The position numbers were made by a program, and so were the translations under genes. Under the pieces are notes generated by a model. The model searched no databases. It was not told the origin of the DNA and saw only the letters and a list, made by a program, of their open reading frames with translations. A stretch of DNA of 64,000 nucleotides from Runella defluvii (lineage in GTDB: Bacteria > Bacteroidota > Bacteroidia > Cytophagales > Spirosomataceae), in the NCBI RefSeq assembly GCF_014195535.1, contig NZ_JACIBY010000019.1, positions 1-64,000 of the forward strand. Reading direction: 5' to 3'. Shown piece after piece: positions 2,446-25,032 of this stretch (its first letter is position 1; every line of letters starts with the position of its first letter).

Positions 2446-2469
2446 GGTGTGTACGAAATATAGTACTTT

Positions 2470-7858: not shown

Positions 7859-8155
7859 ATGAAAGAAGAAACCATTCAGACGCTTCATCCAAAAGAAGGG
7901 AAGGTCAACAAGAAAATATCATTAGAAAAATACAACTTCATCCGAAAAAACTTGCTGCAAATTTTGGAGAAAGATGAGCTTACTCACACCGAACTCATGG
8001 AAAAATTGTACGAAAAGATAAAAGATGATTTTGTGGGTGGCGTGCAATGGTACGGCGAAACCGTTAAACTTGACCTAGAAGCCAGAAGCATCATTTTCAG
8101 AACGAAGTCAAGGCCCGAAAAATATACGTTGAAAGGAAAAGAGCAAACACAATGA
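7859..8155 (+). CDS. Small conserved protein, DUF6958-like
   Basis: A 98-residue charged protein without a signal peptide or membrane segment. The pattern of an opening TLHP motif, a Y-x-x-(I/V)-R-x-x-L-L helix, a winged-helix-like middle, and the closing WYGETVKLDLEAR-x-I-x-R matches what I recall of the DUF6958 family (about 100 residues). The family has no known function; a small DNA-binding-like fold is possible but not shown. It is monocistronic, starts at an ATG, and is followed by a shared hairpin terminator. Confidence 0.65.
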   Translation: MKEETIQTLHPKEGKVNKKISLEKYNFIRKNLLQILEKDELTHTELMEKLYEKIKDDFVGGVQWYGETVKLDLEARSIIFRTKSRPEKYTLKGKEQTQ

Positions 8156-8156
8156 A

Positions 8157-8186
8157 AAAGAGGCGATTATCACTAACCGCCTCTTT
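8157..8186. terminator. Bidirectional terminator between the DUF6958-like gene and kdgD
   Basis: AAAGAGGCG (8157-8165) pairs perfectly with CGCCTCTTT (8178-8186), with A runs on the left and T runs on the right. It starts one base after one stop codon and ends 5 bp before the stop of the convergent kdgD gene, so it can end both transcripts. Confidence 0.75.
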
Positions 8187-8191
8187 CCATT

Positions 8192-9097
8192 TTAACTATT
8201 AGCTTTTATAATTTTTTCAAGCTCAGCATAGTCAGCCTCAGTAGGCATCGATAACGGCGGACGAACATCGCCTGCGCTTTTACCAATTATTTTTGCCCCT
8301 GCTTTAATCAAACTGACCGCATAGCCGTTTTTCTTGCTCCGCAAGCGTACCAACGGAATGTAAAAACTCTTGGTGATTGCAGCGACGGCTTCGGTATCGC
8401 CCGCGCGGAGGCTATGGTAAAATTTATTTGCCAATTCGGGCACAAAATTAAACGCCGCCGACGAATACGTATTGACTCCAATCGACAAATAGGCTTCGGC
8501 AATAATCTCAGCCGTAGGCACACCTCCGATGTATGACAACCGCTTTCCAACGGTTTTGATGGTGTCGTTCAGGTCTTGCATGTTGCCCGTACCGTCCTTT
8601 AATCCTATAAAATTGGGACAGGCATCTGCTAGTTTTTGAATGTATTGCGTTGATAAAACACCGTTGCCACGGTTGTAATAAATGACGGGCAACGTGGTAT
8701 TTTGAATAATCGTTTTGGCGTATTCAAACACCCCGTCTTGCGGGCATTCGGTCAGGTAAGGCGGGAAGAGCAACAACGCATTGATGCCCGCTTTTTCGGC
8801 CATTTTTGCAAAGGCAATGGCTTCGGGAATGCTACGCCCCACGCTCGAAATGACGGGTACGCGTTCGGCTACAACCTTCGCCGAAAGGTTGACAATCTGC
8901 TCATATTCTGCCGCCGAAAGCGAGAAAAACTCCCCCGTTCCCCCTGCTACAAACACCGACGAAACATCATGACTCACAAACCATTCGAGACGGTCGGCAT
9001 AAGTTTCGGCGTTAAATTCTCCATTTTCGTCAAAATCAGTAATTGGAAACGAAAGAAGCCCGTCTTCGAGCGATGATTTTATTTTTGAAAGTTCCAT
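8192..9097 (-). CDS. kdgD: 5-dehydro-4-deoxyglucarate dehydratase (EC 4.2.1.41)
   Basis: A 301-residue member of the DapA-like class-I aldolase barrel family. It dehydrates and decarboxylates 5-keto-4-deoxy-D-glucarate to 2,5-dioxovalerate in the cytoplasm. Features seen are the opening LLSFPITDF, the phosphate-loop analogue GGTGEFFSL at 52-60, the catalytic tyrosine region IYYNR at 139-143, and the Schiff-base lysine K167 in GLKDGTG. GLKDG, GGVPTAE and VYSSA-type segments separate this enzyme from dihydrodipicolinate synthase. It is the last gene of the minus-strand aldarate cluster, 21 bp after gudD, so the product of GudD feeds directly into it. Confidence 0.93.
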   Translation of the reverse strand: MELSKIKSSLEDGLLSFPITDFDENGEFNAETYADRLEWFVSHDVSSVFVAGGTGEFFSLSAAEYEQIVNLSAKVVAERVPVISSVGRSIPEAIAFAKMAEKAGINALLLFPPYLTECPQDGVFEYAKTIIQNTTLPVIYYNRGNGVLSTQYIQKLADACPNFIGLKDGTGNMQDLNDTIKTVGKRLSYIGGVPTAEIIAEAYLSIGVNTYSSAAFNFVPELANKFYHSLRAGDTEAVAAITKSFYIPLVRLRSKKNGYAVSLIKAGAKIIGKSAGDVRPPLSMPTEADYAELEKIIKANS

Positions 9098-9118
9098 GTT
9101 TTTTTAGTGATGAGTGAT

Positions 9119-10432
9119 TTACCAACGTGTTGCCATAAATTTCCAGCCTGGTACTACTTTTTGCATTTCGATTTCGTCGTCGCGTTTGGTCAGGCCGCAT
9201 TTTAGGTAGTTTTCGTGCAATTTTGCCAAGGCCACTTTGTCCAACTCCACGCCCAAGCCTGGGCCTTCGGGAACGGCAACGGCGCCTTCTTCAAACTTCA
9301 AGCGACCACCTACCACAATTTCGTCCGACTGCCATGGATAATGCGTATCAAGGGCATAACGTAGGTTAGGAATAGCCGCCCCTAAATGCACCATCGCCGC
9401 CAATGAAATCCCCAAATGCGAGTTGGAGTGCATCGACAAATCACGCCCAAAGGTTTCGCAAACGCTGGTAAGTTTCATCGATTCTTGCAAGCCCCCCCAA
9501 AAATGGTGATCGCTCAAAATAATGTCCTCCGACCCTAACTCAATCGCCTTGGGAATATCACCAAACGAAGTCGTACACATATTGGTTGCCAACGGTGTTT
9601 TGAGCGCTTTCCGAACCGTCGCCATGTTTTGCTGACCTCGGCAGGGGTCTTCCAAATACTCAAGTACGCCCTCCATTTCTTTCCCGTATTGAATAGAAGT
9701 TTCTACCGTCCAAAGGGCATTTGGGTCTAAACGCAAAGGCACATCGGGGCCAAAAGCGTTGTGCAAGGCCAAAATAGCATCTACTTCTTGGCGCGGGTCA
9801 AATACGCCTCCTTTGAGCTTAATCGACTTAAAACCAAACTCTTTGCACATGGCATGTGCTTGGGTAACAATCTCTTCGGGATTGAGCGCACTCGCCTGAC
9901 GAGCCGCCGCCCAACCCGTGGCATTGGGGTCGGTGCCAAACTCAAGTTCACCCCCTGCTCCTTCGTATTTATAAAACAAATAGGCAGAAAACGGTACTGC
10001 ATCGCGCCGACGCCCGCCTAACAAATCGACGACGGGGCGGTTGATGATTTTACCAATAATGTCCAAACACGCTACTTCAATGGAGCTAAACACGTGCACA
10101 ACCGTACGTTGGTCCCAAGGAGTAAACCCACGGTCGGCGGGTTTTTCTGTGCCAAATTCGGCTTGCAGAATGTCCTTGATTTTATTGAGTTGAAACGGGT
10201 CTTGGCCAATGATTAGGCGTTTGCTACGCTCCAGTGCCTTATCGATGTCGATATTGCCAGGAATTTCACTGATTCCTACGATGTTGTCGTCGGTGATAAG
10301 TTCTACCACCGTACGCAACGCATAAGGCGCGTGAAGTCCCGCCGCATTGAGCAAAGGCGGGTCCACCACCGCGATGGGTGTAATGTTAAATTCTTTAATT
10401 CGTGGTCCTTGGGAGGGAAGGCTGATTGACAT
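9119..10432 (-). CDS. gudD: Glucarate dehydratase (EC 4.2.1.40)
   Basis: A 437-residue enolase-superfamily enzyme that converts D-glucarate (and L-idarate) to 5-keto-4-deoxyglucarate. The catalytic base motif K205-L-K207 is present, followed by metal-ligand regions LRLDPN (D236) and EYLEDPC (E261), the DHHFWGG segment (D308), and the second base H339 in SNSHLG. K205, K207 and H339 fall at the numbers I recall for the E. coli enzyme, so the alignment must be nearly gap-free. Cytoplasmic. It lies between the exported mannonate-dehydratase-like gene and kdgD. Confidence 0.94.
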   Translation of the reverse strand: MSISLPSQGPRIKEFNITPIAVVDPPLLNAAGLHAPYALRTVVELITDDNIVGISEIPGNIDIDKALERSKRLIIGQDPFQLNKIKDILQAEFGTEKPADRGFTPWDQRTVVHVFSSIEVACLDIIGKIINRPVVDLLGGRRRDAVPFSAYLFYKYEGAGGELEFGTDPNATGWAAARQASALNPEEIVTQAHAMCKEFGFKSIKLKGGVFDPRQEVDAILALHNAFGPDVPLRLDPNALWTVETSIQYGKEMEGVLEYLEDPCRGQQNMATVRKALKTPLATNMCTTSFGDIPKAIELGSEDIILSDHHFWGGLQESMKLTSVCETFGRDLSMHSNSHLGISLAAMVHLGAAIPNLRYALDTHYPWQSDEIVVGGRLKFEEGAVAVPEGPGLGVELDKVALAKLHENYLKCGLTKRDDEIEMQKVVPGWKFMATRW

Positions 10433-10452
10433 AAAAAGTTGAATAAATTGGT

Positions 10453-10520
10453 AAAGACGTACGATTGATTAAAACGAATTACTTTTTAAAAGCGCTTCTT
10501 GTGCCCAATCTTACGTCTTT
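10453..10520. repeat. Inverted repeat in the gap upstream of gudD
   Basis: AAAGACGTACGAT (10453-10465) and ATCTTACGTCTTT (10508-10520) are complementary at 12 of 13 positions, with a 42-nt loop. It lies in the 112-bp gap between the mannonate-dehydratase-like gene and gudD. It could be an mRNA processing or attenuation structure, or another interspersed repeat. Confidence 0.45.
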
Positions 10521-10544
10521 GGGGTCTTTTTTTTATCAATGATA

Positions 10545-11663
10545 CTAGGCGGTTTCGCTGGCAACTACTTGCAACAAACCTTTGATGTAACCGTAACAAA
10601 ACGCAAAGGCTTCTTGAGTACTGTTAGCTGCATGGTGGTGCGGTACGTGGTCGGGCATAACCATCCCCGAATAACCTACATCCCGTAATGCTCTGATGAC
10701 TTTGACAAAATCCATTTCACCGTTGTCGGGATAGACTTCTTGGAAATTATTGAAACTGCCTTTGATGTTTCTTAGGTGAACGTTAAAAATCTGATTGCGC
10801 TCTCCTACCCATTTGATGATGGGATAAATTTCGTTTTTGGGGTCTTTTAATCCCTCCGCAATGGAGCCAATGCAAAAGTTAAAGCCATGGTATTCGTTGT
10901 CGTACAATTTGGCAAAACGCTGAATCCCTTTAAACACATCGGGGCTGTTCCAACGCATCACACCACGGTAAGCCGCTGGCACTGGTGGGTCGGCAATGTG
11001 GTTGGCGAGTTTGACTTTGTACTCTTTGGCCACGGGAAGTAATCGGTCGAGCAAATACGTAATTCGCTCAAAAATTTGGTCGATTGATACATCTCCTGCT
11101 ACCGTTTTGGGGTCATTCCTTTTCAATGCTTCTTCGTAATTCCAAACACTGTATTCGGCATTTCCGCGCTTGGGATCGGTGTATTTTCCCGTCCGCAGTA
11201 CGGGCAATATGGTCGTATTGTAGTTCAGTACTTTGATGCCCGATTTGCCCGCCACTTGAATCATTTGTTGTAAATACTCAATCTCACGGTCGCGCTCAGG
11301 GCTTTTTCCCAACATAATATTGGGGTAAATCACTTTGTCAATTCCCGCCGAACTCAAGGGGTAATGGTACGCGTCCAAACTGATTCCGTACTTTTCGCAG
11401 GCTTCTTTTTTGGCCAACGAATCTTCCAAATCCCAGCCTTTACCTGGAATTACTTTTGGGGCACCACCGTCGATATTAAAGATACCATGACGGGCCTTAA
11501 ATTCGAGATTTTCAACGCTCGTCCCGCCCGATTGGCAGCCTGCTTTCATCAATACTTTTTTGGGAGGCGTAACAAGCGACGCCGCATGGGTCTTTTCGCC
11601 CCCTGTTACCGAAGCACTTACCGAACCTACGGCAACTGCTTTGAGAAAATTACTACGTTTCAT
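10545..11663 (-). CDS. Exported mannonate dehydratase-like (UxuA-type) TIM-barrel protein
   Basis: A 372-residue protein resembling D-mannonate dehydratase. The UxuA-like landmarks are LANHIADPP, the FCIGS cysteine segment, FNVHLRNIKG, a Y-P-D-N-G-E-M loop and MPDHVPHH. Classical UxuA is cytoplasmic. This one begins MKRSNFLK followed by a small-residue hydrophobic stretch and THA-A, which looks like a Tat-like leader (KR instead of RR). It would therefore act in the periplasm, perhaps on uronate or aldonate breakdown products before uptake. That localisation is inference. It lies 21 bp downstream of a GntP permease and upstream of gudD. Confidence 0.75.
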   Translation of the reverse strand: MKRSNFLKAVAVGSVSASVTGGEKTHAASLVTPPKKVLMKAGCQSGGTSVENLEFKARHGIFNIDGGAPKVIPGKGWDLEDSLAKKEACEKYGISLDAYHYPLSSAGIDKVIYPNIMLGKSPERDREIEYLQQMIQVAGKSGIKVLNYNTTILPVLRTGKYTDPKRGNAEYSVWNYEEALKRNDPKTVAGDVSIDQIFERITYLLDRLLPVAKEYKVKLANHIADPPVPAAYRGVMRWNSPDVFKGIQRFAKLYDNEYHGFNFCIGSIAEGLKDPKNEIYPIIKWVGERNQIFNVHLRNIKGSFNNFQEVYPDNGEMDFVKVIRALRDVGYSGMVMPDHVPHHHAANSTQEAFAFCYGYIKGLLQVVASETA

Positions 11664-11684
11664 CTTATTTTAAACGGTTATTTT

Positions 11685-13115
11685 TTATACCAATGGAAAC
11701 AAAGCCGCTCCAATCATAATGACAATCAAACCCGTCAACCCCATCACTACCAGCAACGGCGAAATGGTTTTGAGGGCTTCTTTTTCTGTAAGATTGCTCA
11801 ATTTACAGATAATCCAAAAACCAGCATCATTCATCCAAGGCACTAATTTTGACCCACATCCAATCGCTAACCCTAAATAAACAGGGTGAAACGACAGGTT
11901 GGCGTTGCTGGCCATTCCTGACAAAATACCCGAGGCTGTAATCAAGGCTACCGTAGCCGAGCCTTGGGCGGTTCGAACCACGGCCGCAATAAAAAATGCC
12001 ATTGGAATAAGTGCCATTTGGTATTCTTTGGTCATATCAGCAATGCGGCTACTGATGCCCGTTTGCTGCAACATTCCCCCAAACACACCACCCGCCGCTG
12101 TAATCAAAATAATACCGCCGCCACTCATCAAAGCCGACTGCACAAAAGGCGTTAATCCGTCTTTTTTAGCGTCCTTTTTCTGACTTGCCAACACCCACAA
12201 CGCAATGAACCCTCCCGTGAGAATGGCAATGTTTTTGTCGCCAAAAAATTTCACAATAGCCACCAAAGTAGTAGGGACTTCACTTGCTTTAAAAAACGCG
12301 CTAAAAGCCGTATCGAGGCAAATAAAAAACAAAGGAACAGCTACGGGCAACAACGAAATACCCAACGAAGGGAGTTGTTTGGTTTCTTTAGCCGCAATCG
12401 ACTTCATGTCTTCCAGTTTCGCATCCAACGAATCGCGGAGTTCAATTGGCCATTTTTTATTGGCCCAAAGGGCAAAAAAGTAGCCCGAGGTAATGGTAAA
12501 AAGCCCCACAATGACACCCGTCACCATCATCAAACCCATCGGAATGTGCATTTCGCCAATCAGGAACAACGGACCAGGCGCAGGGGGCACCAGCGAGTTG
12601 GCCATTGCCGCCCCCGCCATGATACACAACACCAACAAAAGGTAATTTTTACCAATGCGGAGGGTCATGGCTTTGGCAAGAGGCACCATCAAAAACAAAA
12701 CGGTATCAAAAAAAACGGGGATTCCGAGGAAAAAACTGCTTAGTAGAAAGGCAATCGGGGCTTTTTCGATGCCCGTTAGACGAAGAATCGACCGAATGAT
12801 GCGCTCGGCCGCTCCGCTTTCAAGCATACATTTTCCAATAATAGCGGCCATCGCTATCAGAATGCCTATTTTGGCGCAGGTATTTCCAAACTCGGTGGCA
12901 ATGCGCTCACCTACGCTCTTTTTGGCCATCGCCAAGGCCGCAGCGGGAGCCGTTCCTTTGGACAATGCGTATTGCTCAATGACTTCGGGTGGTGTCAGCA
13001 TCGCAACGGCCAAGGCTCCTAACAACAGAGCCAAAAATGGATGCAGCTTAGCGCCAATGATTCCACCCACCACAATCAACACGCCCACCGACAAGATAAA
13101 TAAGGGGTCAGACAT
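11685..13115 (-). CDS. GntP-family sugar-acid:H+ symporter (copy 1)
   Basis: A 476-residue inner-membrane protein of the gluconate permease family, with about 12-14 hydrophobic segments. It opens with the typical GVLIVVGGIIGAKLHPFLALL. Family landmarks are FGNTCAKIGILIAM, the PPAPGPLFL loop, the AQGSATVALITASG motif and LVPWMNDAGFW near the C-terminus. The likely substrate is glucarate or a related sugar acid, judged from the neighbouring gudD and kdgD. A close paralogue is encoded at 22030-23469 next to garD, so the two may divide substrates. It follows the SusD-like gene after a palindrome-rich 157-bp gap. Confidence 0.9.
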   Translation of the reverse strand: MSDPLFILSVGVLIVVGGIIGAKLHPFLALLLGALAVAMLTPPEVIEQYALSKGTAPAAALAMAKKSVGERIATEFGNTCAKIGILIAMAAIIGKCMLESGAAERIIRSILRLTGIEKAPIAFLLSSFFLGIPVFFDTVLFLMVPLAKAMTLRIGKNYLLLVLCIMAGAAMANSLVPPAPGPLFLIGEMHIPMGLMMVTGVIVGLFTITSGYFFALWANKKWPIELRDSLDAKLEDMKSIAAKETKQLPSLGISLLPVAVPLFFICLDTAFSAFFKASEVPTTLVAIVKFFGDKNIAILTGGFIALWVLASQKKDAKKDGLTPFVQSALMSGGGIILITAAGGVFGGMLQQTGISSRIADMTKEYQMALIPMAFFIAAVVRTAQGSATVALITASGILSGMASNANLSFHPVYLGLAIGCGSKLVPWMNDAGFWIICKLSNLTEKEALKTISPLLVVMGLTGLIVIMIGAALFPLV

Positions 13116-13146
13116 TCAGGGTTTTAGGTTTAGGTTTTTTAATTTT

Positions 13147-13277
13147 TCAAGGCTTGCCAAACGACTTGCCAAGTCTTTACTTTTATCGGTAGTGAGACTT
13201 GGCAAGTCGTTTTACCAAGTAGTGAGACTTGCCAAGTCTTGTTATCTCTTTTTCCAGACTTGGCAAGGCTTTTTATT
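13147..13277. repeat. Cluster of nested palindromes (CTTGCCAAG units)
   Basis: Between the SusD-like and GntP genes, CTTGCCAAG or its complement CTTGGCAAG (or a half of it) occurs five times. The best arms, 13161-13176 and 13195-13210, are a perfect 16-bp inverted repeat. AGTGAGACTT occurs twice as a direct repeat (13191-13200 and 13221-13230). Outer arms near 13149-13160 and 13261-13272 also pair. On the minus-strand transcript this would fold into several alternative hairpins between susD and gntP. Likely an interspersed palindromic repeat that also acts as an operon-internal structure. Confidence 0.7.
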
Positions 13278-14823
13278 TTTTATCCCACCAGATGCGGGTA
13301 TCCAACAAGTTAGGCCCTTGGCGGTCGATGGCCTTTTGGACGTTCACTTTATTGACGTTCAACTCAGCATCAGTATAAGTCAAACGACGAATAAATGGCT
13401 CGGTTTTAAGGTCTTTTCCTGGATACGTATTCGGTGTTAACACAGGAAAATCGCTTCTTCGGAAGTTTGCCCACGATTCGGGGCCGTTCAGAAACGTGGC
13501 TACCCAATATTGTGTATTGATTTGTTCCAACTCTTTTCCTACTGCTAACGGATTCGCCTTTACGTACGTATCTATCGCCGCGTCGGCAATGGCCGAACTT
13601 GTGCCGTAGTTGGCATATTGCTGCATGTTGGCCTTTATCCCGTTGGCATACAGTGTAGCGGCATCGCCCGTTGTCCATTTCCGATACACTGCCTCTGCCA
13701 ACAACAATTGGGTTTGGGCATACGTCACCAAAAAGCTAGGCGCCGTTAAGCCGCCCATACGCGTACGATCTAATTGACTATAATCCCACAAACTTGCCAG
13801 TTTTTTAGCGGTGACTGCGGTGCTTATTGTTGTGTTGTCGTAGCCTTGAGGCGCCCCAATCTGAACCGCAGACGTACGATTGGCCCGCGACTCCACCTGC
13901 TGAGCACCGCTCGTTGCGCCCACGTAACGCACAGCAATTGAAGCTAAACGCGGGTCGTTGTTTTTATTCAAATACTCCACAAAATCTTCGGAAAGGTAAA
14001 AGAACGCCGACTGCCCTCCGTTGAGTTGTGAGCCAATGGGGTTAGTAAAACTCGCATTGTGACGAATAATCGCATTGTCAGCGTTGGATTGCATTACCCC
14101 GCCCGTCACGGCCTTGGCCACGTATTCTGCCGCTTTTGCAGGGTTTACTTTTGATAAACGCATGGCCGCTCTCAACAAAAGTGAGTACCCCAAGCGCTTC
14201 CATTTGGTGACGTCACCATCGTACAACAAATCGGTAGTTGCTTTGGCTTTAGAGGCATCCAAAGCCGCCGAAGCGCCGTCTAATTCGCTTAAAATCGCCA
14301 TATATACCGACTCTTGGGTATCGTAAATTGGCGTTGAGATGCCTTCCAAATAGTTTCGTCCTGCTTGGGTGTAAGGAATATCGCCGTAGGTATCGGTCAA
14401 AATCATGAACGAATATGCCTGCCAAATCCGAATCAAGTTGTAGAGGTTCGAGCGTGCGGGAATATCTTTGGTTTTAGCAAGGGCGTCTGTCAGTTCTTTG
14501 ATGTTGGTTTGGTAATAGGTATTCCAGTTGCCCGACGCTACCCCCCGATTGTCTTGGTTAAAATTAGCCGCCGACCCTTGCCCGCTAAAGGGCGTTATCA
14601 TCTGTTTGACGATGGTGGTTTCGTAACTCAAGTTCCCGTAGGCAGGTGCCGTATTGACAATGGCCGTATTGAGTTGATAGCCAGGGTCAACGGCCGTAAG
14701 GGCAATGGGGTTTACGTTCATTTCATCAAACCCTTTATCGCAGCCAACCAAGCCCCCCACTCCAACAACGATTGTCGTCCAAAAAGGGAGCGAAAAAGCC
14801 AATTTTCTGATTATATTTTTCAT
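13273..14823 (-). CDS. SusD/RagB-family outer-membrane lipoprotein (SusD-like_2)
   Basis: A 516-residue lipoprotein; the lipobox LVGC puts the lipidated cysteine at C28. The SusD-like tetratricopeptide framework shows in segments such as LYNLIRIWQAYSFMILTDTYGDIPYTQA and FLVTYAQTQLLLAEAVYRKW. SusD proteins sit on the cell surface as lids over SusC channels and bind oligosaccharides or other ligands for TonB-dependent import. It lies 65 bp downstream of the SusC gene. In this cluster the ligand is more likely a sugar acid or acidic oligosaccharide than starch; this is inference from the enzymes encoded nearby. Confidence 0.92.
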   Translation of the reverse strand: MKNIIRKLAFSLPFWTTIVVGVGGLVGCDKGFDEMNVNPIALTAVDPGYQLNTAIVNTAPAYGNLSYETTIVKQMITPFSGQGSAANFNQDNRGVASGNWNTYYQTNIKELTDALAKTKDIPARSNLYNLIRIWQAYSFMILTDTYGDIPYTQAGRNYLEGISTPIYDTQESVYMAILSELDGASAALDASKAKATTDLLYDGDVTKWKRLGYSLLLRAAMRLSKVNPAKAAEYVAKAVTGGVMQSNADNAIIRHNASFTNPIGSQLNGGQSAFFYLSEDFVEYLNKNNDPRLASIAVRYVGATSGAQQVESRANRTSAVQIGAPQGYDNTTISTAVTAKKLASLWDYSQLDRTRMGGLTAPSFLVTYAQTQLLLAEAVYRKWTTGDAATLYANGIKANMQQYANYGTSSAIADAAIDTYVKANPLAVGKELEQINTQYWVATFLNGPESWANFRRSDFPVLTPNTYPGKDLKTEPFIRRLTYTDAELNVNKVNVQKAIDRQGPNLLDTRIWWDKK

Positions 14824-14864
14824 TGTTTGTATCCTTTTATTGTTTCCCCGAAAGCTTTGTATTT

Positions 14865-14889
14865 AGCCCCCATCGGGGGTTTGGGGGCT
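14865..14889. repeat. C/G-rich hairpin in the SusC-SusD gap
   Basis: AGCCCCC (14865-14871) pairs with GGGGGCT (14883-14889), and an internal CCCCC-ATC-GGGGG offers an alternative pairing. It lies directly at the SusC stop codon, in the 65-bp space before susD. It resembles the elements at 21901-21931 and 21971-22028. A structure here could set the SusC:SusD mRNA ratio. Confidence 0.6.
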
Positions 14890-17800: not shown

Positions 17801-18449
17801 ATCCGACGTAGCTAAAAACCAGCACCGCCGCGTTGTTGGGCACTTCCAATTGATAGGCTCCCTCAACGTTGGTGGTAGTGCCGCGTTGCGTACCTTTGAT
17901 TAAGACACTTACGCCTGGCAAACCTACGCCCTTTTCGTCGGACACTTTTCCTTTGATGAGTTCGGCTACTATTTCCATTTTTTCTACGGCTCTCACCACC
18001 GAAACCTCCGCCGTCAAGGGCTTCTCGGTGAGTTGAGGGGCAATGATGCTTTCTTGAAATCGGGCGTCAGCTTCCGCCGTTTTTTTGTTTTTTTTCGTTT
18101 CCAAAATCACGTAAGCCCCTTCTTTTACCTTCTTGTAGTTCAGTCCCGAAACTTTCAGGACTTTTTCTAAATTCGATTCCAACGAGGCTTTGTAATCAAC
18201 AAGGTCGGTAGGCACTACAAGGCCATCCACAAGCCCGCCTTCAAAAAGAATATCAACGCGATAATAGCTTTTAAGTTGGCTCAAAACTCCTTTTAATTTT
18301 TGAGTTTCAGGCGCCGTTTTTTGTTCGGGTCTTGGCGCAAGTTTATACGCTTTGGCATACACCTGCTGCGACCAACTTGGCCGCCCAAAGAGCAATAAGG
18401 CAAGTAGTAAACTACCTACCCAACTTGATTTTTGTAGGTTTGTCTTCAT
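14889..18449 (-). CDS. SusC/RagA-family TonB-dependent receptor with N-terminal STN signalling domain
   Basis: A 1186-residue outer-membrane transporter. Order of parts: signal peptide (to about residue 28); an STN (secretin/TonB N-terminal) domain at about 45-115; a carboxypeptidase-regulatory-like domain at about 164-230 (KGKVSDEKGVGLPGVSV, GAYQL, YVGY); a plug domain with the SusC signature RIRGQSSFGGNNSPLIVVNG; then a large beta-barrel ending in an aromatic-rich strand (ITRNIGFNLNVKF). An STN domain marks transducing receptors that contact a FecR anti-sigma factor, and a FecR gene lies 21 bp upstream. It should import the ligand captured by the SusD protein. Confidence 0.93.
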   Translation of the reverse strand: MKTNLQKSSWVGSLLLALLLFGRPSWSQQVYAKAYKLAPRPEQKTAPETQKLKGVLSQLKSYYRVDILFEGGLVDGLVVPTDLVDYKASLESNLEKVLKVSGLNYKKVKEGAYVILETKKNKKTAEADARFQESIIAPQLTEKPLTAEVSVVRAVEKMEIVAELIKGKVSDEKGVGLPGVSVLIKGTQRGTTTNVEGAYQLEVPNNAAVLVFSYVGYESKEVIVGAQTAINISLVPESKSLGEVVVTALGIKKQAKSVGYATATVGTDEMTVNRTANFMNALQGKMAGVNITSLGSGPAGTSKIRIRGQSSFGGNNSPLIVVNGVPIDNTNNGARGDVSEKGSNRTSDGGDGLSSINPDDIESMTVLKGAAASALYGSRAKDGVIMITTKNRGSGSGVSLTYNSNFTSETPLDYTDYQYEYGQGENGQRPTAAFPTSGQWSFGEKFQPGMTQVLFDNITVPYEPQRNQISQFYQKGYTWTNTMTLSSGGENGGFSLSVSNLDNRTILRNSGYHRRTINLGFTQTFAKKLTVSGNVNYSNEYRKNPPNIAEQDYSPVIIFNMANSMPLDLLEKNAEDANGNEVVWSRFTNRTNPYFALKRFDNIHNDRVFGNLTARYNFTDWLFLQGRVGQDYYSREQDYNLPTGTQRQPAAPAGFVNGQFVQDARSVRELNADFLLGANRTFGVIGMNVNVGGNQMYRRISRHNVFVQDFYTRNLYTVGNGRLRDATYDFSERQVNSLYASAEVSYKDYLFLNGTVRNDWFSTLSPANRSILYPSVTASFVFSQAFATKLPTWINFGKIRAAYAEVGSDTDVSPYANNLFYSINAQQFPSPTGVAQPLATISGSTVPNPDLRPMRVSEKEFGLELKLFNNFLGLDFTYYDKLSSDQILRAQTSNAGGYLTQLINVGQSQNRGVEMLVTLNPIRREDLTWSLILNAAYNKTKVLDLGSGVSDNMITVGTGEFTGELRQVVGQPMGQLFGFGYLRDAQGRQVFDAGNGRPLRTATQIPFGSALPLWVGGITNSFNFKGVELSFLIDFKLGHKMISGTNHNAWRHGLHKATLVGRAENFVIGDGVNPNGEVNKTKSVVQAYYETVRSQNIAEEFVYNAGLWQLRQISLGYDLSKLLPANRRFVKGIRLNAVANNVAVIKKWVPNIHPEQFGFPSDNLVGLEATGLPITRNIGFNLNVKF

Positions 18450-18470
18450 TATAACACAGGTTTGGGTCTA

Positions 18471-19472
18471 TTATTTATCAGTAAGAAGTACAGTATCACC
18501 CACTTTGGTGATTTGGAGGTTAAATATTTCGGAAACAATTTCAAGCAATTCGTCGGCATTATTGGCTCGAAACGATCCCACTAGCGTCCGTTGAGCCAAG
18601 GAATCGTCGGCGATAATTACTTTTAAACCATAATTATCCGCCATAATTCGGACAAACTCTTCCAAGGTTGTATCGTCAAACACAAAGCGGTGTTCTTTCC
18701 ATGCCGTGTATTTTTCAGGTTGCTCGGTAATTTCTTTTTTGAGGTGATTACTTTGGTCAAACGTCACCAATTCTCCTGGCTTCATCATTAGCTCTTTCTG
18801 CGTTTTTCCTTCTTGGTAGCGCAACTGAACTTTGCCTTTATTCAACACCACTTTGGCTTCTTTACGGCGGGCATAAACCGAAAATTCTGTCCCCAAAACA
18901 ACCACCTCCACGCCTTTTTCGGTTTTTACTACAAATCGTTGGTTATCAACGGTATGCGTAACCGTAAAATTAGCTTCTCCCGTCAACCTAACTTGGCGTG
19001 TTTTTTTACCAAACCCGAATCGAGGAACTTCCAACGATGAGTTGGCATTGAGTGTTACTTGGGTACCATCGCTAAGGGTAATTGTTTGGGTTTCACCAAA
19101 TTCGGTGCGATGAGTTTTATACAAAAACGTATCTTGATAGACCCATCCAGTTACTAAAACACTGATTATTGAAGCTGCAATGGCCCACCATCGCCATGAA
19201 AAATGCGTAAATTCTTTTTCTTCCGATTCGGATAAAATCGACCAATCTGGGTTTTCATCAACTTGATTGGCCAATTGATTAAAACGGTCTAAACCAGCAG
19301 CTATATCGGTGCTATACTGCGGATTTTGACACTCATATTCGACCAACCATTTGTAAAACAGTTCTTCGTTTTCAGGTTTTTTAACCCAATCATCTATCAT
19401 TCGTTTTTGTAAGGCCGACGCGCGTCCCGACAAATAGTTAAATATAATTTCTTTTGTAATTTCTATGTTCAT
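18471..19472 (-). CDS. FecR-family anti-sigma factor
   Basis: An inner-membrane regulator of about 333 residues. A cytoplasmic N-terminal helical part binds the sigma factor. One membrane span (RWWAIAASIISVLVTGWVY) lies near residue 95. A periplasmic FecR domain follows (ITLSDGTQVTLNANSSLE, VVVLGTEFSVYA), then a C-terminal STN/DUF4974-like domain (RFVFDDTTLEEFVRIM). I place the start at the ATG giving MNIEITKE; the frame also opens 8 codons earlier at a GTG (19496). It lies between the sigma gene and the STN-containing SusC gene, the usual order for Fec-like surface signalling. It should release the sigma factor when the receptor is loaded. Confidence 0.92.
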   Translation of the reverse strand: MNIEITKEIIFNYLSGRASALQKRMIDDWVKKPENEELFYKWLVEYECQNPQYSTDIAAGLDRFNQLANQVDENPDWSILSESEEKEFTHFSWRWWAIAASIISVLVTGWVYQDTFLYKTHRTEFGETQTITLSDGTQVTLNANSSLEVPRFGFGKKTRQVRLTGEANFTVTHTVDNQRFVVKTEKGVEVVVLGTEFSVYARRKEAKVVLNKGKVQLRYQEGKTQKELMMKPGELVTFDQSNHLKKEITEQPEKYTAWKEHRFVFDDTTLEEFVRIMADNYGLKVIIADDSLAQRTLVGSFRANNADELLEIVSEIFNLQITKVGDTVLLTDK

Positions 19473-19513
19473 TGACGTAAGTAGTAAAAACCTCACAAAC
19501 GTGATAGTTTTGG

Positions 19514-20182
19514 TTAAAAAACGAGGCTTAACACGACTAAAACTTCAGAAAGTAACCACTTTCCTTTAAGTAGTGCTCGAATGTACTGATTGGCTCGATG
19601 AAGTTGTACATCCACTGTTTTTACTGAAAGATTCAGCTCATCCGCAATTTCTTGGTACTTTTTCCCTTCAAATTTTCGCATCAAATAAATTTTACGCCGC
19701 TCAATGGGTAATTTATTGACGGCTTCTTCCACATCATGGTACAGTTCTTCAAACTGACTGATATGGTCGGGCTGGTATTCATCAAGCATCGGTTTTTGGG
19801 CGGCTTCGAGCAGGTCCGCCTTACGGCTCAAATCCCAACGGAGGTGGTTATACGCTTTATTACGAACGGCCCGAAATAGGTAAAACCGATAAGAGGAAGT
19901 GATGTCGCTAAACGTTTTGTTGGCATACAGCTGAAAAAAGATTTCGGAGACAAGGTCTTCGGCCGTTTCTCGCGAACCAACATACTTCACCGCGTGGGTA
20001 CAAAGGGGTTGGTAATAGCGTTTGTAGAGCAAGGCCATTCCTTCCCGCGCATTGGTTTCAAAGGTTTTTCGGATAAACAATTCGTCATCAAACTCCACGA
20101 CTTTTTTATCGTCGGAAGAAGATAATGGTGTGGTAATAGGAGTACCCTTGGTTTCAATATAATTATTGTTGACCTGCTTCAT
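19514..20182 (-). CDS. ECF-type RNA polymerase sigma-70 factor
   Basis: An extracytoplasmic-function sigma factor of about 222 residues. Region 2 (LYKRYYQPLCTHAVKYVGSRETAEDLVSEIFFQLY) binds the core polymerase and the -10 element. Region 4 carries a helix-turn-helix (KYQEIADELNLSVKTVDVQLHRANQYIR). The first ATG gives MKQVNNNYIE; ten further codons upstream start with TTG (20212), so the ATG is preferred. The FecR anti-sigma gene is 41 bp downstream. It probably transcribes this same minus-strand cluster (FecR, SusC/D, permease, dehydratases) when substrate is present; this is inference from gene order. Confidence 0.92.
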   Translation of the reverse strand: MKQVNNNYIETKGTPITTPLSSSDDKKVVEFDDELFIRKTFETNAREGMALLYKRYYQPLCTHAVKYVGSRETAEDLVSEIFFQLYANKTFSDITSSYRFYLFRAVRNKAYNHLRWDLSRKADLLEAAQKPMLDEYQPDHISQFEELYHDVEEAVNKLPIERRKIYLMRKFEGKKYQEIADELNLSVKTVDVQLHRANQYIRALLKGKWLLSEVLVVLSLVF

Positions 20183-20296
20183 CGTGCTATGGTGTACTTT
20201 CTCTAAAGACAAGTTCGCACGAATACTTCCTTACACGAATTGAAAAATATTTTTATTTTTTTGAATTTTATTTAGAATAGCGGGGGCTTATTTTGT

Positions 20297-20317
20297 AACC
20301 ATATAAGAAATATAAGA
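20297..20317. repeat. 21-bp direct repeat (copy 1)
   Basis: AACCATATAAGAAATATAAG plus one more base occurs here, between garD and the sigma gene, and again identically at 33927-33947. In both places it is intergenic and just past the end of a gene or transcript. It is a candidate short interspersed repeat. Confidence 0.6.
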
Positions 20318-20366
20318 GATTATAAGGCAAACCGTAAACCCAAAACAGGAAACAGGAAACCCAACA

Positions 20367-21953
20367 CTAAGTCAAAGGCCCAGGGTTAAAGAGTACTAAG
20401 TCGTTGTAAAGGCCCAATTTATCGGTTGCTACTTTTTTGGTTCCACTGGCAACTTCCAAAATCAAGTGGAACAACTCCCAACCCATTTCTTCAATTGTTT
20501 TTTCGCCAAAAGCAACGGGGCCCGCGTCGAAATCAATCAAATCGTGCCAACGGTTGGCGAGTTTTGAGTTAGAGCTCACTTTTATCACAGGTACCATGTT
20601 TAGCCCATAAGGAGTGCCGCGCCCCGTGATGAAGACGTGCATGTTCATTCCTGCGGCCAATTGCAGCGTGCCGCAAGCGAAATCAGAGGCAGGCGTTGCG
20701 ACAAAATTTAGTCCTTTCTTGCTTACTTTTTCTCCTGGGGAAACCACATCCACAATCGGGCTTGTCCCCGACTTTGCGACCGAACCCAATGCTTTTTCGA
20801 CAATGTTACTTAGTCCTCCACCTTTGTTTCCTGGGGTTGTATTGGCGCTTCGGTCGGCTTGACCTTGGTAGAGGTAATTGTCGTACCAAGCCATTTCGTC
20901 TTTGAGTTTTTGGGCAACGGTTGCATCCATTGCCCGTGGCACCAACAAATGTATGGCATCGCGGACTTCGGTTACTTCCGAGAAAAACACCGTCCCACCC
21001 GCTTTCACAATCAAATCGGCGGCAAAACCTGACACAGGGTTGCCCGTCAAGCCCGAAAAAGCGTCGCTTCCGCCGCATTGCATCCCCACCACCAAATCGG
21101 CTACTGAACATTGCGTACGTTGGCGTTGGTTGAGTTTTTGAAGGTGCGTTTCTGCCATTTCCATGATTCCATCCACCATTTCATAAAAACCCTCAAAACG
21201 TTCATCTTGGAGGTAGAGAATGGAAGATTGGTTATCATTATCGGGGAGTAACCTTTCTGGTCTAAGTTTCTCACAACCAAGGCCAATAATCATCACTTCG
21301 CCGCCAAAATTGGGATTTTGCGCAATGTTTTTGATGGTTCGAATCGGCACAATTGCCCCAGGGGCATCAATCGCAATGCCACATCCATAACTGTGATTAA
21401 ACGCCACCACATCATCGACATTAGGGTACAAAGGCAGCAATTCTTTTCGTATTTTATTTTCAATAAAATTGGTGATACCTGCCACGCATTGTACACTCGT
21501 GGTGATTGCCAGTACGTTTTTTGTACCTACACTACCGTCAGCATTTCGGTAGCCCATGAAAGAAGCCTCCTTTAGCCCAACAGGGAGAGAAAGTGAACTA
21601 ACTCCGCCATTGGGGGCGGGAGGCGTTACATACTTAATATCTTCCAATTTGGGAGGTTCGGGTAGGCTGATATTTCCCTCATTTACCCAACTTCCTTTTT
21701 CGATGGTTCGGGTGGCATAGCCAATCACTTGTCCATAACGTCGTACTTCATCGCCCGTTTCAAGGGTTTGAAGCGCCACTTTATGTCCCATCGGAATATT
21801 CTCGACTAAAACCGTTGTGCCTAGCACAATACTCCCTCGTTTCAACCCCGATGGAGTTGCTACGATAGCGACATTGTCGTTGGGCGAGGTTTTGATAACA
21901 AGCCCCCTAGCCCCCATTGGGGAAGTTTGAGTATCTATTATAATATTTTTCAT
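20367..21953 (-). CDS. garD: Galactarate dehydratase (EC 4.2.1.42)
   Basis: A 528-residue UxaA/GarD-family enzyme that dehydrates galactarate to 5-keto-4-deoxyglucarate, the same intermediate GudD makes. It has an N-terminal SAF-like domain ([26 protein letters not shown]) and a C-terminal catalytic part with [47 protein letters not shown] and TGRGTPYGL. These segments follow the E. coli GarD sequence as I recall it much more closely than altronate dehydratase (UxaA). Residues 8-19 ([12 protein letters not shown]) are encoded by a repeat-like DNA segment and have no counterpart there. It follows a GntP permease by 76 bp. Confidence 0.94.
21901..21931. repeat. C/G-rich repeat inside the start of garD
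   Basis: On the minus strand this reads as an AACTTCCCCAATGGGGG head followed by CTAGGGGGCT. The same head and tail occur in opposite orientation at 21971-22028, on the other side of the garD start codon. Here the repeat is translated as part of the GarD N-terminus. See the matching finding. Confidence 0.65.
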
Positions 21954-21970
21954 TTTCTGATGTATATATT

Positions 21971-22028
21971 AAAACTCCCCCATTGGGACGGGTGGTTCGC
22001 CACTGCGACGCCGCGCGGGTGGGGGGCT
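21971..22028. repeat. C/G-rich repeat between the permease and garD
   Basis: Begins AAAACTCCCCCATTGGG and ends GGGTGGGGGGCT, with a GC-rich middle (CGCCACTGCGACGCCGCGCG). It fills most of the 76-bp gap and ends 2 bp before the permease stop codon. Head and tail match the segment inside garD in inverted orientation, and a shorter relative lies at 14865-14889. Confidence 0.65.
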
Positions 22029-22029
22029 G

Positions 22030-23469
22030 CTACACCATCGGCCACAACCAAGCCGCTATCATTGTCAAAAGTACCCCCGCCAATCCCATCAAACTTTGCA
22101 TGGGAGCAATGGTTTTGAGGGCTTCTTGCTCGGTTAAATTTGAGGTTTTACACATAATCCAAAAACCTGCGTCGTTCATCCAAGGAATCAGTTTTGCCCC
22201 ACTACCAATGGCTAAACACAGATAAACGGGGTGAAAACCAAGGTTAGCATTTTGAGCCATTCCTGCCAATATCCCCGAAGCTGTAATCAACGCCACCGTC
22301 GCCGAGCCTTGGGCGGTGCGCACTACTGCCGTAATTAAAAATGCCAACGGAATGAGCGCCATTTGATAATCTTTGGTCATGTCGGCAATGCGCTGACTAA
22401 TACCTGTTTGCTGCAACATCCCGCCAAAAGCACCGCCAGCGGCCGTAATCAAAATAATGCCTCCACCACTCATCAAAGCCGTTTGGGTAAATGCCGTCAG
22501 TTTGTCCTTGGTTGTTTTTTTCTGGCCTGCCAATACGTAAAGTGCAAAACAAGCACCCATAAAAATCGCTATATTTTTATCTCCACAAAACATCAGTACA
22601 TCCATAAATCCCTGACTAAAAGGCGATAAATTTTCATGGGGAATTTTAAATGCCTCCACCGCCGAGCGCACACAAATCGTTACCAATGGAAACACCGCAG
22701 GAAGCAGCGCCCATCCCAAAGCGGGGAGTTCTTTGTCTTCTTTGTTGGCAATAGCAGCAATGTCTTCCAAACGGGCATCGGGCGCATCACGCAAGGGAAT
22801 ATCGTATTTTTTATTGAGGTACAGCGCAATAAGGTAACCTACTGTAATGGTACAAAGCCCTAACAAAGTGCCGCAAACCATCATTAAACCAATGGGAACG
22901 TTTAACGCCCCAATGAGAAATAACGGCCCAGGCGAAGGAGGAACGTAAGAGTTGGCCATCACGGCACCCGCAATGACCGACAACGCCAGCAAAAGATAGT
23001 TTTTGCCTAAACGCATTCCCATCGCTTTGGCCAAAGGCATCATTAAAAAGATAACTGTATCAACAAAAACGGGAATCGTCAAAAAGAAACTGCTCAGAAT
23101 AAATCCAATGGGCGCATTTTTAACGCCTGTCACTTTTAGCATAGCACGAATGATTTTTTCGGCGGCTCCGCTGTCTAGCATCGACTTTCCGATGATAGCT
23201 GCCATCGCAATCAAAATACCTATTTTAGCGCAGGTATTTCCAAATTCGGTGGCAATACGTTCACCTACGCTTTTATGCGCTTGTTTCAACGCCTCAGCGG
23301 CAGACATTCCCTTAGCCAAATAAAATTGTTCAATCGCCGCCTCAGATGTGAGCAATGCCACCACCAGCGCTGCCGACAAAAGGGCCAAAAAGGGATGCAA
23401 TTTAAAACCGATAATTCCTCCGACAACAATCACAACGCCTACGAGCAAAATGAGTACAGGATCTAACAT
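22030..23469 (-). CDS. GntP-family sugar-acid:H+ symporter (copy 2)
   Basis: A polytopic inner-membrane permease of 479 residues from the ATG chosen here (MLDPVLILLVG). That start aligns with the start of the paralogue at 11685-13115; the open frame extends 17 codons further upstream without family resemblance. It shares with copy 1 the long blocks VGERIATEFGNTCAKIGILI and AQGSATVALITASGIL and the closing WMNDAGFWI. Placed directly before garD, it is a likely galactarate importer; this is inference. Divergent from the FAD-linked dehydrogenase gene, with 180 bp between them that could hold control sites. Confidence 0.9.
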   Translation of the reverse strand: MLDPVLILLVGVVIVVGGIIGFKLHPFLALLSAALVVALLTSEAAIEQFYLAKGMSAAEALKQAHKSVGERIATEFGNTCAKIGILIAMAAIIGKSMLDSGAAEKIIRAMLKVTGVKNAPIGFILSSFFLTIPVFVDTVIFLMMPLAKAMGMRLGKNYLLLALSVIAGAVMANSYVPPSPGPLFLIGALNVPIGLMMVCGTLLGLCTITVGYLIALYLNKKYDIPLRDAPDARLEDIAAIANKEDKELPALGWALLPAVFPLVTICVRSAVEAFKIPHENLSPFSQGFMDVLMFCGDKNIAIFMGACFALYVLAGQKKTTKDKLTAFTQTALMSGGGIILITAAGGAFGGMLQQTGISQRIADMTKDYQMALIPLAFLITAVVRTAQGSATVALITASGILAGMAQNANLGFHPVYLCLAIGSGAKLIPWMNDAGFWIMCKTSNLTEQEALKTIAPMQSLMGLAGVLLTMIAAWLWPMV

Positions 23470-23649
23470 GTTATATAAGTTAAGGATAACAACACTACTA
23501 ACATTTATAAAATCATACAAAGAATAATTTGTATTTTTTCACGCAATCGTTATCGGGAACGTTGTCAATGTACCCTCTTTTTTATACCCATAGTAAGTAA
23601 AAACATTTGTGGTTTCTACTTTAAAAATTCACAAAACCAACCTTTCCTC

Positions 23650-25032
23650 ATGACTTCAATTGTTGACCTCCTTATTCAAGCAGTTGGAAAAGACGCCATT
23701 TTAACCCAAATCGAAGCCGCCGAACGCCCTGCCAGCCGTTGGTTATCGACCGACAACCTTTCGTGCAAAGCATTAGCGCGTCCCAATACCACCGACGATG
23801 TGGCTACAGTCCTGCGACTTTGTTATGAACACGGCCAAACCGTAGTGCCGCACGGAGGTTTAACAAACGTGGTCGGCGGCGTGACCACTACCCACAACGA
23901 CGTTGCACTGAGTCTCGAACGAATGAATGTCATTGAGAAAATTGACCTTCAAAACAAAACAGTGACGGTACAAGCGGGCGTGATTTTACACGATTTACAA
24001 AAGGCCGTTGCGGAGGCAGGTTTATTGTTTCCGCTGGACTTAGGAGCCAAAGGAAGTTGTATGATTGGCGGTACTATCTCAACGAATGCAGGAGGCTTAC
24101 AAGCCATTCGTTACGGAGTTATGCGTCAGCTTGTCTTGGGCTTGGAAGTAGTTTTGGCCGACGGTACGGTTATTTCTTCCATGAATAAAATGCTCAAAAA
24201 CAACGCAGGCTACGACCTAAAACACCTCTTTATTGGTTCAGAGGGGACGTTAGGCATCGTCACCAAAGCTGTTTTAAAACTAGAAGATGCCCCCAAAAGT
24301 AAAAATACGGCGCTTATTGGCCTTTCCAGCTTCGACAAAGCAATCGCATTTCTGCAAACCGCCAAGCGTGAATTGGCCAATAAACTCACCACTTTCGAAA
24401 TCATCTGGCAAGACTATTACCGTTTGATGACCTCACCTCCCTCTAGTTTTACCCCTCCTCTTCCTCAAAACTACCCTTATTACGTGTTGCTGGAAGCATT
24501 AGGCCAACATCAAGAAGCTGACGAAGTTCATTTTCAAAATTTACTAGAACAATCGCTCGAAACTGGCCTTATCGAAGACGCCACGTTGGCACAATCTCAA
24601 CAAGAACTGGATTGGTTTTGGGGAATACGCGAAAAAGTGGACTTTGTGTTTCAAGTTCATCAACCTGTCTTTTTGTTTGATGTGAGTTTGCCCATCACTG
24701 ACATGGAATCGTACATTCACACCGTCATCCACGACCTTAAAGCGGTGTGGCCACAAGTTCATTTTTACAGTTTTGGTCACATGGGCGATGGGAATCTTCA
24801 CTTGTTTGTAAGCTGCGGAGAAAACAGCCCCGAAACTCGCCACCGCGTGGAAGAAATCGTATTTTTACCCCTTCAAAAAATTGGTGGTTCGATTACGGCC
24901 GAACACGGAATTGGGCTTGAAAAAAAACCGTGGCTTCACCTCAGCCGCACACCCGAAGAAATAGCACTTATGCGTACCCTCAAACAAGCACTAGACCCCA
25001 AAGGTATCTTGAACCCTGGAAAAGTGGTTTAA
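23650..25032 (+). CDS. FAD-linked 2-hydroxyacid dehydrogenase (GlcD/D-2-hydroxyglutarate dehydrogenase family)
   Basis: A 460-residue flavoprotein of the PCMH (vanillyl-alcohol-oxidase) family. The N-terminal FAD-binding domain (about 35-215) has PHGGLTNVVGG, the GGTISTNAGG stretch and GSEGTLGIVTKAVLKL. The C-terminal FAD-oxidase_C domain has the metal/substrate motif GHMGDGNLH and the ending ITAEHGIGLEKK...LDPKGILNPGK. Members oxidise D-2-hydroxyacids such as D-lactate, glycolate or D-2-hydroxyglutarate. The substrate cannot be read from sequence. Divergent from the garD operon, so it may handle a side product of aldarate breakdown. Confidence 0.88.
   Translation: MTSIVDLLIQAVGKDAILTQIEAAERPASRWLSTDNLSCKALARPNTTDDVATVLRLCYEHGQTVVPHGGLTNVVGGVTTTHNDVALSLERMNVIEKIDLQNKTVTVQAGVILHDLQKAVAEAGLLFPLDLGAKGSCMIGGTISTNAGGLQAIRYGVMRQLVLGLEVVLADGTVISSMNKMLKNNAGYDLKHLFIGSEGTLGIVTKAVLKLEDAPKSKNTALIGLSSFDKAIAFLQTAKRELANKLTTFEIIWQDYYRLMTSPPSSFTPPLPQNYPYYVLLEALGQHQEADEVHFQNLLEQSLETGLIEDATLAQSQQELDWFWGIREKVDFVFQVHQPVFLFDVSLPITDMESYIHTVIHDLKAVWPQVHFYSFGHMGDGNLHLFVSCGENSPETRHRVEEIVFLPLQKIGGSITAEHGIGLEKKPWLHLSRTPEEIALMRTLKQALDPKGILNPGKVV

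Follow-up and report, generated by a model that had tools for sequence, protein, structure and literature searches.

A possible aldarate uptake, sensing and breakdown locus built around a SusCD-type importer in Runella defluvii

What does an outer-membrane SusCD pair with its own extracytoplasmic function (ECF) sigma factor do among genes for the breakdown of sugar diacids (aldarates)? The question is raised by positions 8192-23520 of a 64,000-nucleotide stretch of Runella defluvii DNA (contig NZ_JACIBY010000019.1, positions 1 to 64,000), hereafter the window. Ten minus-strand genes, confirmed as open reading frames (ORFs) and by profile-family searches, follow each other there in the transcription order GntP2, GarD, ECF sigma, FecR, SusC, SusD, GntP1, UxuA-like, GudD-like and KdgD. 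We consider it fairly probable that the locus is a unit for aldarate uptake, sensing and breakdown that originated from the merger of two older units. The observations behind this proposal are the gene families, the conservation of a SusCD-containing block among relatives, the mutually exclusive exit enzymes, the joint change of the signalling front end and a promoter element, and the predicted fold of the signalling domain. A preliminary description made from the sequence alone had recognised the families correctly. It overlooked the UxuA-like gene, and its interval extended over a plus-strand GlcD-type FAD oxidase (23650-25032) that lies outside the unit; of the 29 loci compared, just those of the window and of its three closest Runella relatives have this gene next to the unit.

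The comparison covered 150 genomes of the Spirosomataceae, including Runella limosa DSM 17973 (G095), Spirosoma profusum (G121), Arcicella aurantiaca (G052), Emticicia aquatilis (G094) and a Lacihabitans (G084). Orthologs of the window SusD with at least 67% identity were found in 32 of them, a group set apart by an identity gap from 67% to 58% and containing one fragment (G146). The block conserved in the family has the order sigma-FecR-SusC-SusD-(GarL)-GntP1-(GarR)-UxuA-like-GudD, where the genes in parentheses are variable members. GudD occurs in all 32 genomes: inside the block in 28, separated from it by contig ends in two and on another contig in two. Linkage of garD to the block was found in 5 of the 32, and garL together with garR lies within the block in all 25 block genomes that bear GarL; the block proteins share at least 62% identity. 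The identical ten-gene order of the window recurs in three other Runella genomes (G075, G095 and G129) with 84-99% protein identity, and the locus is therefore not a chance arrangement. The preliminary description had connected the SusCD, FecR and sigma genes with both gudD and garD, and had named a lack of this linkage in most relatives as refuting evidence, which applies to garD but not to gudD. Its central idea of a SusCD pair tied to aldarates is supported by these gene neighbourhoods, with GudD and not GarD as the constant partner; the garD part is local to a few genomes.

No other line of evidence, in our view, argues as strongly for a SusCD block that feeds 5-keto-4-deoxyglucarate, the expected GudD product, as the distribution of the enzymes that would consume it. 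One exit is KdgD, 5-dehydro-4-deoxyglucarate dehydratase (decarboxylating), encoded in the window at 8192-9097; the second one known consists of GarL and GarR. At the cut-offs used, KdgD was found in 28 and GarL in 34 of the 150 genomes, and both together in none (P = 3e-4 with phylogeny ignored, although the genomes are not independent). Of the two exits, every block genome carries one and only one (KdgD in 7 of the 32, GarL in 25), and the same is true of the 29 genomes with GarD (KdgD in 24, GarL in 5). Four of the seven block genomes devoid of GarL have KdgD in the locus. The other three (G086, G119 and G136) carry it elsewhere, in a separate GarD operon without GudD, and their block contains neither GarL nor GarR. 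Because every block genome has KdgD or GarL, the block seems to need a consumer of the GudD product, with either enzyme sufficing. This complementarity supports the aldarate role of the importer independently of the gene order in the window.

The assignments of these enzymes differ in strength; profile scores are quoted here as bits over the cut-off of each model. KdgD exceeds NF002958 (399/278) and falls 1.6 bits short of TIGR03249 (372.4 against 373.95), and its best match in the Protein Data Bank (PDB) is the keto-deoxy-galactarate dehydratase 4ur7 (E 1e-78). GarD, galactarate dehydratase (20367-21953), passes the equivalog cut-off of TIGR03248 (804/731). Of the three names given in the preliminary description, GarD was confirmed, KdgD passed one model and narrowly missed the other, and GudD stayed under its model. 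GarR of the relatives, a 286-residue protein, exceeds the tartronate semialdehyde reductase model TIGR01505 (two members were scanned, with 361 and 355 bits over a cut-off of 341); GarL had no match in the window genome. The last enzyme of the oxidative route, 2,5-dioxovalerate dehydrogenase, had been described as lying outside the window, and this proved correct, as the aldehyde dehydrogenase family PF00171 has no match on the window contig and nine elsewhere in the genome. The best candidate by likeness, yet not a specific one, is encoded on contig C17 (L269) and matches the NADP+ aldehyde dehydrogenase 3v4c (E 1e-138). It cannot be assigned by co-occurrence because a relative is present in 146 of the 150 genomes; a 48% homolog adjoins KdgD in Arcicella (G052, C6:4803-6242). 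With the NCBIfam models for 2,5-dioxovalerate dehydrogenase, two other aldehyde dehydrogenases of the genome, among the eight of nine scanned, remained under the cut-offs (371-380 and 357-372 against 750-770 bits).

How did the importer come to stand among these genes? Orthologs of GarD (E < 1e-100) were identified in 29 of the 150 genomes. GntP2 (22030-23520, PF02447, ATG at 23469), the permease accompanying GarD, adjoins it in most of the fetched relatives. In 12 of the 28 neighbourhoods outside the window, GntP2, GarD, GudD and KdgD occur together in that order, two of them with an intervening ORF, and the remaining neighbourhoods are one gene short, cut by contig ends or reordered. Among the 28, an orthologous SusCD pair adjoins GarD only in G075, G095 and G129, with the window order, and in G111, with the order sigma-FecR-SusC-SusD-GarL-GntP2-GarD-GarR-UxuA-like-GudD. 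In a GudD tree of 49 of 50 rows (one duplicate of G103 was omitted), the four GudDs of the window clade group with 14 GudDs of GarD operons (18 rows, support 100/99), whereas the block GudDs that other Runella species carry branch elsewhere. This placement points to a merger of the SusCD block with a GarD-GudD-KdgD operon. The simplest reading of the tree and gene orders is that the segment from sigma to the UxuA-like gene was inserted between GarD and GudD, and that the block's own GudD, GarL and GarR were lost. As a separate observation, a 300-residue ORF lies between GarD and KdgD in G086 (L142, from about 2436) and G119 (L146, from about 2508), and a relative of it lies between GudD and KdgD in G133.

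The signalling front end consists of the ECF sigma factor (19514-20212; TIGR02985, 134/126), the FecR-like anti-sigma regulator (18471-19496, likely start ATG 19472; PF04773 and PF16344) and the N-terminal domain of SusC, and the first two genes lie immediately upstream of susC. SusC is a TonB-dependent transporter (14889-18449) above the TIGR04056 cut-off (624/368), with its signalling domain at about residues 48-118. The adjoining gene encodes a SusD-like_2 surface lipoprotein (13273-14823; PF12771) with the lipobox-like motif GGLVGC. The STN domain that the preliminary description had assigned to SusC scored 13.1 in Pfam, under the cut-off of 28.4, and is borne out by the predicted fold instead. 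The AlphaFold model of the domain has a mean pLDDT of 68.6 (76-88 in the core blocks). In a Foldseek search, its single match under 0.001 was 6goc, the methylesterase BT1017 (E 2.3e-4), followed by the FecA signalling domains 2d1u (E 6.5e-3) and 1zzv (E 8.4e-3), both with probability 1.00, and then by a Parabacteroides anti-sigma factor, PupR, FpvA, PupA, PupB and secretin N0 domains. The predicted model thus belongs to the fold class expected of an STN domain.

The front end varies over an importer that is otherwise constant. SusC was compared in 30 of 32 rows, two proteins under 1000 residues being omitted, and the sigma ORF was not recovered in G050, G003, G023 and G024. Outside the window clade, residues 165-1186 of SusC share 76-90% identity with the window protein, and the identity rises stepwise at about residue 150. 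Thirteen loci have a front end of the window type, with identities of 51-100% for STN (residues 30-120), 56-100% for FecR and 69-100% for sigma. Sixteen have another type (STN 15-23%; FecR and sigma at most 29%), and G115 is intermediate (30%, 42% and 36%, respectively). A tree built from the SusC barrel places the window-type loci together with G115 in a single clade of 14 members. In these comparisons, sigma, FecR, the STN domain and the candidate promoter described below change jointly over a constant SusC barrel. Multiple exchanges of the signalling cassette were rejected because the SusC tree needs one exchange only.

The candidate ECF promoter, TGTAAGGA-N15-TTGTCTT, lies at 20206-20235 on the minus strand and has no second exact match in the genome. 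The ten window-type loci aligned share a conserved segment of roughly 40 bp in front of sigma. With a spacer of 15 or 16, the element was found in 12 of the 14 genomes of the window-side clade (G115 and G017 lack it) and in none of the 7 genomes searched of the 16 with the other cassette type; a reversed control motif gave no match in all 21 genomes. In 11 of the 12 genomes the element is the sole match and lies just upstream of sigma, G095 having one extra match elsewhere. In G050 and G003 it lies 531 and 573 bases outside the sequence retrieved, past the end at which the sigma gene is cut off. It is its conserved position that makes TGTAAGGA-N15/16-TTGTCTT a candidate promoter. Since the element overlaps the TTG at 20212, the ATG at 20182 is the more likely start of the sigma factor, and because it sits between GarD and sigma, GntP2-GarD would form a separate unit. 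Generic scans gave no excess over shuffled sequences, with 24 against 21.2 sites for sigma-70 promoters and 22 against 24.1 for terminators. The longest hairpin in the scan, a terminator-like structure of 15 pairs on the minus strand (8155-8188), directly follows KdgD. Four 13-bp palindromes GACTTGSCAAGTC, one of them imperfect, are spaced in steps of 30-33 bp in the gap between SusD and GntP1 (13163-13269), giving 7 strand matches against 0.1 expected. A conserved operator was rejected here, since of the six Runella genomes searched just the window genome and G095 carry exact copies; two more Runella genomes have one copy each of a shorter core.

With the pathway reactions taken from the named enzyme families, we infer the substrate, its import, the signal and the target of the sigma factor, as well as the role of the UxuA-like protein considered further below. 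The substrate brought in across the outer membrane by SusD and SusC would be of the hexarate type, either as such or as a lactone or simple conjugate, and loaded SusC would signal through its FecA-like N-terminal domain to FecR, leading to the release of the ECF sigma factor. Starting at the element at 20235-20206, the sigma factor would transcribe the operon that begins with its own gene and runs to KdgD. GntP1, the putative inner-membrane sugar-acid permease retained in the SusCD block (11685-13115; PF02447), and GntP2 would move the acid across the inner membrane. GudD, together with GarD acting on galactarate from the separate unit, would yield 5-keto-4-deoxyglucarate. KdgD would convert it to 2,5-dioxovalerate, and an aldehyde dehydrogenase encoded elsewhere in the genome would complete the route to 2-oxoglutarate. 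Tentatively, and with clearly less assurance than for the aldarate unit as such, we suggest that the SusCD pair might have become an importer for a monomeric sugar diacid or its lactone alone, one that signals for itself and works without any glycan-cutting enzyme. The importer would then be the stable core, with cassettes swapped at both of its ends: the signalling front end (promoter, sigma, FecR and STN) through an exchange within susC, and the catabolic exit, which is GarL with GarR or else KdgD.

Several points weigh against the proposed aldarate unit. The GudD-like protein (9119-10432) is a divergent member of the enolase superfamily. It reaches 337 bits with the glucarate dehydratase model TIGR03247, far under the curated equivalog cut-off of 828.7, and its nearest solved chains are 3vdg, named a probable glucarate dehydratase, and 3vc5, hence our designation as GudD-like. 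GarL of the relatives, a 257-residue HpcH/HpaI aldolase, is likewise under its own cut-off (190 against 407 bits) and, at 208 bits, under that for HpaI, so its name rests on context. Two GarD-linked GudDs (G126 and G014) fall outside the GarD-operon clade. The switch between GarL and KdgD suggests at least two events, in Runella and Spirosoma, and not 32, and since sigma, FecR and STN changed together on a single branch of the SusC tree, that change counts as one event. The UxuA-like gene, kept throughout the block genomes, has no assigned step in the proposed pathway. Furthermore, the catabolic half occurs without SusCD orthologs in at least three genomes, as GarL-GntP2-GarD-GarR-UxuA-like-GudD in G103 and as GarL-GntP1-UxuA-like-GudD in G016 and G148, the latter with GarR present. 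GarL also lies within 4 kb of GudD without a UxuA-like match in G011, G104, G137 and G143, and G066 has GarL-GntP2-GarD-GarR without GudD. Because the catabolic half stands without SusCD in G103, G016 and G148, the pathway can run without the importer, which is therefore dispensable; its importance may be confined to low substrate concentrations or to a bound form. Lastly, free aldarates, at about 210 Da, are small for a SusCD pair, whose ligands tend to be larger; the substrate may therefore be a conjugate.

A different cargo would be something larger and acidic, for instance an acidic oligosaccharide or an aldarate ester from plants, that has an aldarate at its end or sets one free through enzymes encoded elsewhere. 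We consider this unlikely. It agrees with the oligomers that are the usual SusCD ligands and with the genomes that have the catabolic half alone, where an importer would be missed for the bound form only; it might also gain from an Amidohydro_2 protein, weakly related to lactone hydrolases, in 6 of the 32 block genomes. In Sunxiuqinia indica (L035, 526-14658), an unrelated SusCD pair, whose SusC has a Pfam-positive STN and whose SusD is of another family, lies downstream of sigma- and FecR-like genes and ahead of a GH88 hydrolase and GntP, GarD, DHDPS-family, MOFRL and GarR-like genes, with similar genes in Mangrovibacterium (L033). This cluster suggests that aldarate genes joined SusCD systems more than once, and its GH88 gene points to an acidic oligosaccharide there. 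By contrast, a Pfam profile search found no glycoside hydrolase, lyase or glycan esterase family match among the ten window proteins, and the constant extra genes in the relatives are GarL, GarR and the UxuA-like gene. That the SusCD, FecR and sigma genes serve some other substrate and merely stand beside the aldarate genes strikes us as improbable. The sparse garD linkage, the few genomes with the catabolic half and no block, and the 45 PF07980 SusD matches in the genome, which make chance adjacency possible, are outweighed by the block's association with gudD in 28 and with garL and garR in 25 of the 32 genomes, with protein identities of at least 62%, and by the presence of kdgD in 7 of the 7 cases in which garL and garR are absent. 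An analogy with ferric citrate would let the system sense or import a metal-aldarate complex. Aldarates chelate metals and the signalling domain has a FecA-like predicted fold, but the partner genes belong to carbon catabolism, and no metal-uptake or metal-reduction family matched among the ten proteins in the Pfam profile search. Moreover, SusCs with STN domains under ECF sigma/anti-sigma control are described from glycan loci (PMC7782687). We therefore give the metal complex hardly any credence.

The UxuA-like protein (10545-11663; PF03786) is a further component of the proposed aldarate unit. Its gene is present in 37 of the 150 genomes, including all 32 with SusD orthologs. It misses both mannonate dehydratase cut-offs (NF003027, 88/191; TIGR00695, 55/200), although its residues H222, C264, H296 and D338 align with UxuA and are invariant across the aligned homologs; we take them to correspond to the UxuA metal ligands. 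The protein has a Tat-like start, in which the full twin arginine is absent, and its structure prediction is poor (pLDDT 58.9). Our guess is that it might epimerise or dehydrate the substrate in the periplasm. That it replaces GudD in the three genus g13 genomes that carry it (G107, G115 and G146) was ruled out, as GudD is found elsewhere in each genome. A phylum-wide distribution was also rejected, with 2 of 395 sampled genomes positive, both Runella, in a sample that has only four genomes of the family and that missed a Saprospiraceae copy. This copy (L038; 67-68% identity) adjoins GntP and GarD; like L035, it belongs to a wider survey in which 42 of 80 loci were examined.

Some further genes accompany the block in relatives or share the window. 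The Amidohydro_2 gene lies between SusD and GarL in five of its six genomes and downstream of GudD in one (L234:7188-8147, L248:7125-8156 and four more loci). Its product has an export-like N-terminal sequence and is weakly like 2-pyrone-4,6-dicarboxylate and sulfomuconolactone hydrolases; by this likeness it could open aldarolactones. In six genomes of one genus (L238, L240, L242, L243, L251 and L252), GudD is followed on the same strand by an ORF of about 1380 residues that resembles a hybrid two-component regulator, and a second regulator may act at those loci. Elsewhere in the window, 30689-32038 encodes a class-III aminotransferase-family protein over the cut-off for (R)-1-hydroxy-2-aminoethylphosphonate ammonia-lyase PbfA (666/525 bits), and at 319-5250 a molybdopterin-dependent oxidoreductase adjoins a PVC-type haem-binding CxxCH protein with DUF7133.

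SusCD pairs are habitually annotated as glycan importers, and a pair tied to aldarates would broaden their cargo and provide a small, defined ligand. The natural exchange of the front end in one importer would make the pairing of STN, FecR and sigma available in two natural variants, and the exclusive GarL or KdgD exits show clearly, at the genome level, how a pathway can be replaced while the uptake system in front of it stays constant. Among the literature matches listed, from open-licence papers only, we found no report of an aldarate-linked SusCD locus, nor of such a locus among those on FecR/SusC signalling-domain exchange. The enterobacterial glucarate/galactarate pathway comprises GarD, GudD, GarL, GarR and GarK. 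Here, GarD and GarR are over the curated cut-offs and the GudD-like and GarL-like proteins belong to the same families under the equivalog cut-offs, whereas the pathway is linked to GntP permeases and to a TonB-dependent importer that has a sigma factor of its own. The oxidative KdgD route leads to 2-oxoglutarate, and the window resembles it in the adjacent GudD and KdgD genes, with KdgD over one curated cut-off and just under another, but has the final dehydrogenase outside the locus. The reconstructed galactarate/glucarate operon of Halomonas is also an aldarate locus with its own transporter and regulator; according to PMC5507952, however, these are a TTT-family TctABC transporter and the GntR-family regulator GguR, and the substrates named in its passage on TonB-dependent transporters are sucrose and beta-glucosides. 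The locus shares with Bacteroidota polysaccharide utilisation loci under ECF/anti-sigma control the one-strand order of sigma, FecR, SusC with a signalling domain, SusD and catabolic genes, but it has sugar-diacid dehydratases and sugar-acid permeases instead of glycoside hydrolases or lyases. The FecIRA and PupB systems are approached in the predicted fold of the SusC domain, in a FecR with a C-terminal domain and in the ECF sigma gene upstream. A PupA/PupB chimera (PMC9249621) demonstrates that signalling domains can be exchanged by engineering. In the Runella relatives, the exchange would be a natural one that included FecR and sigma, in a presumed carbon-source importer with no iron gene among the ten.

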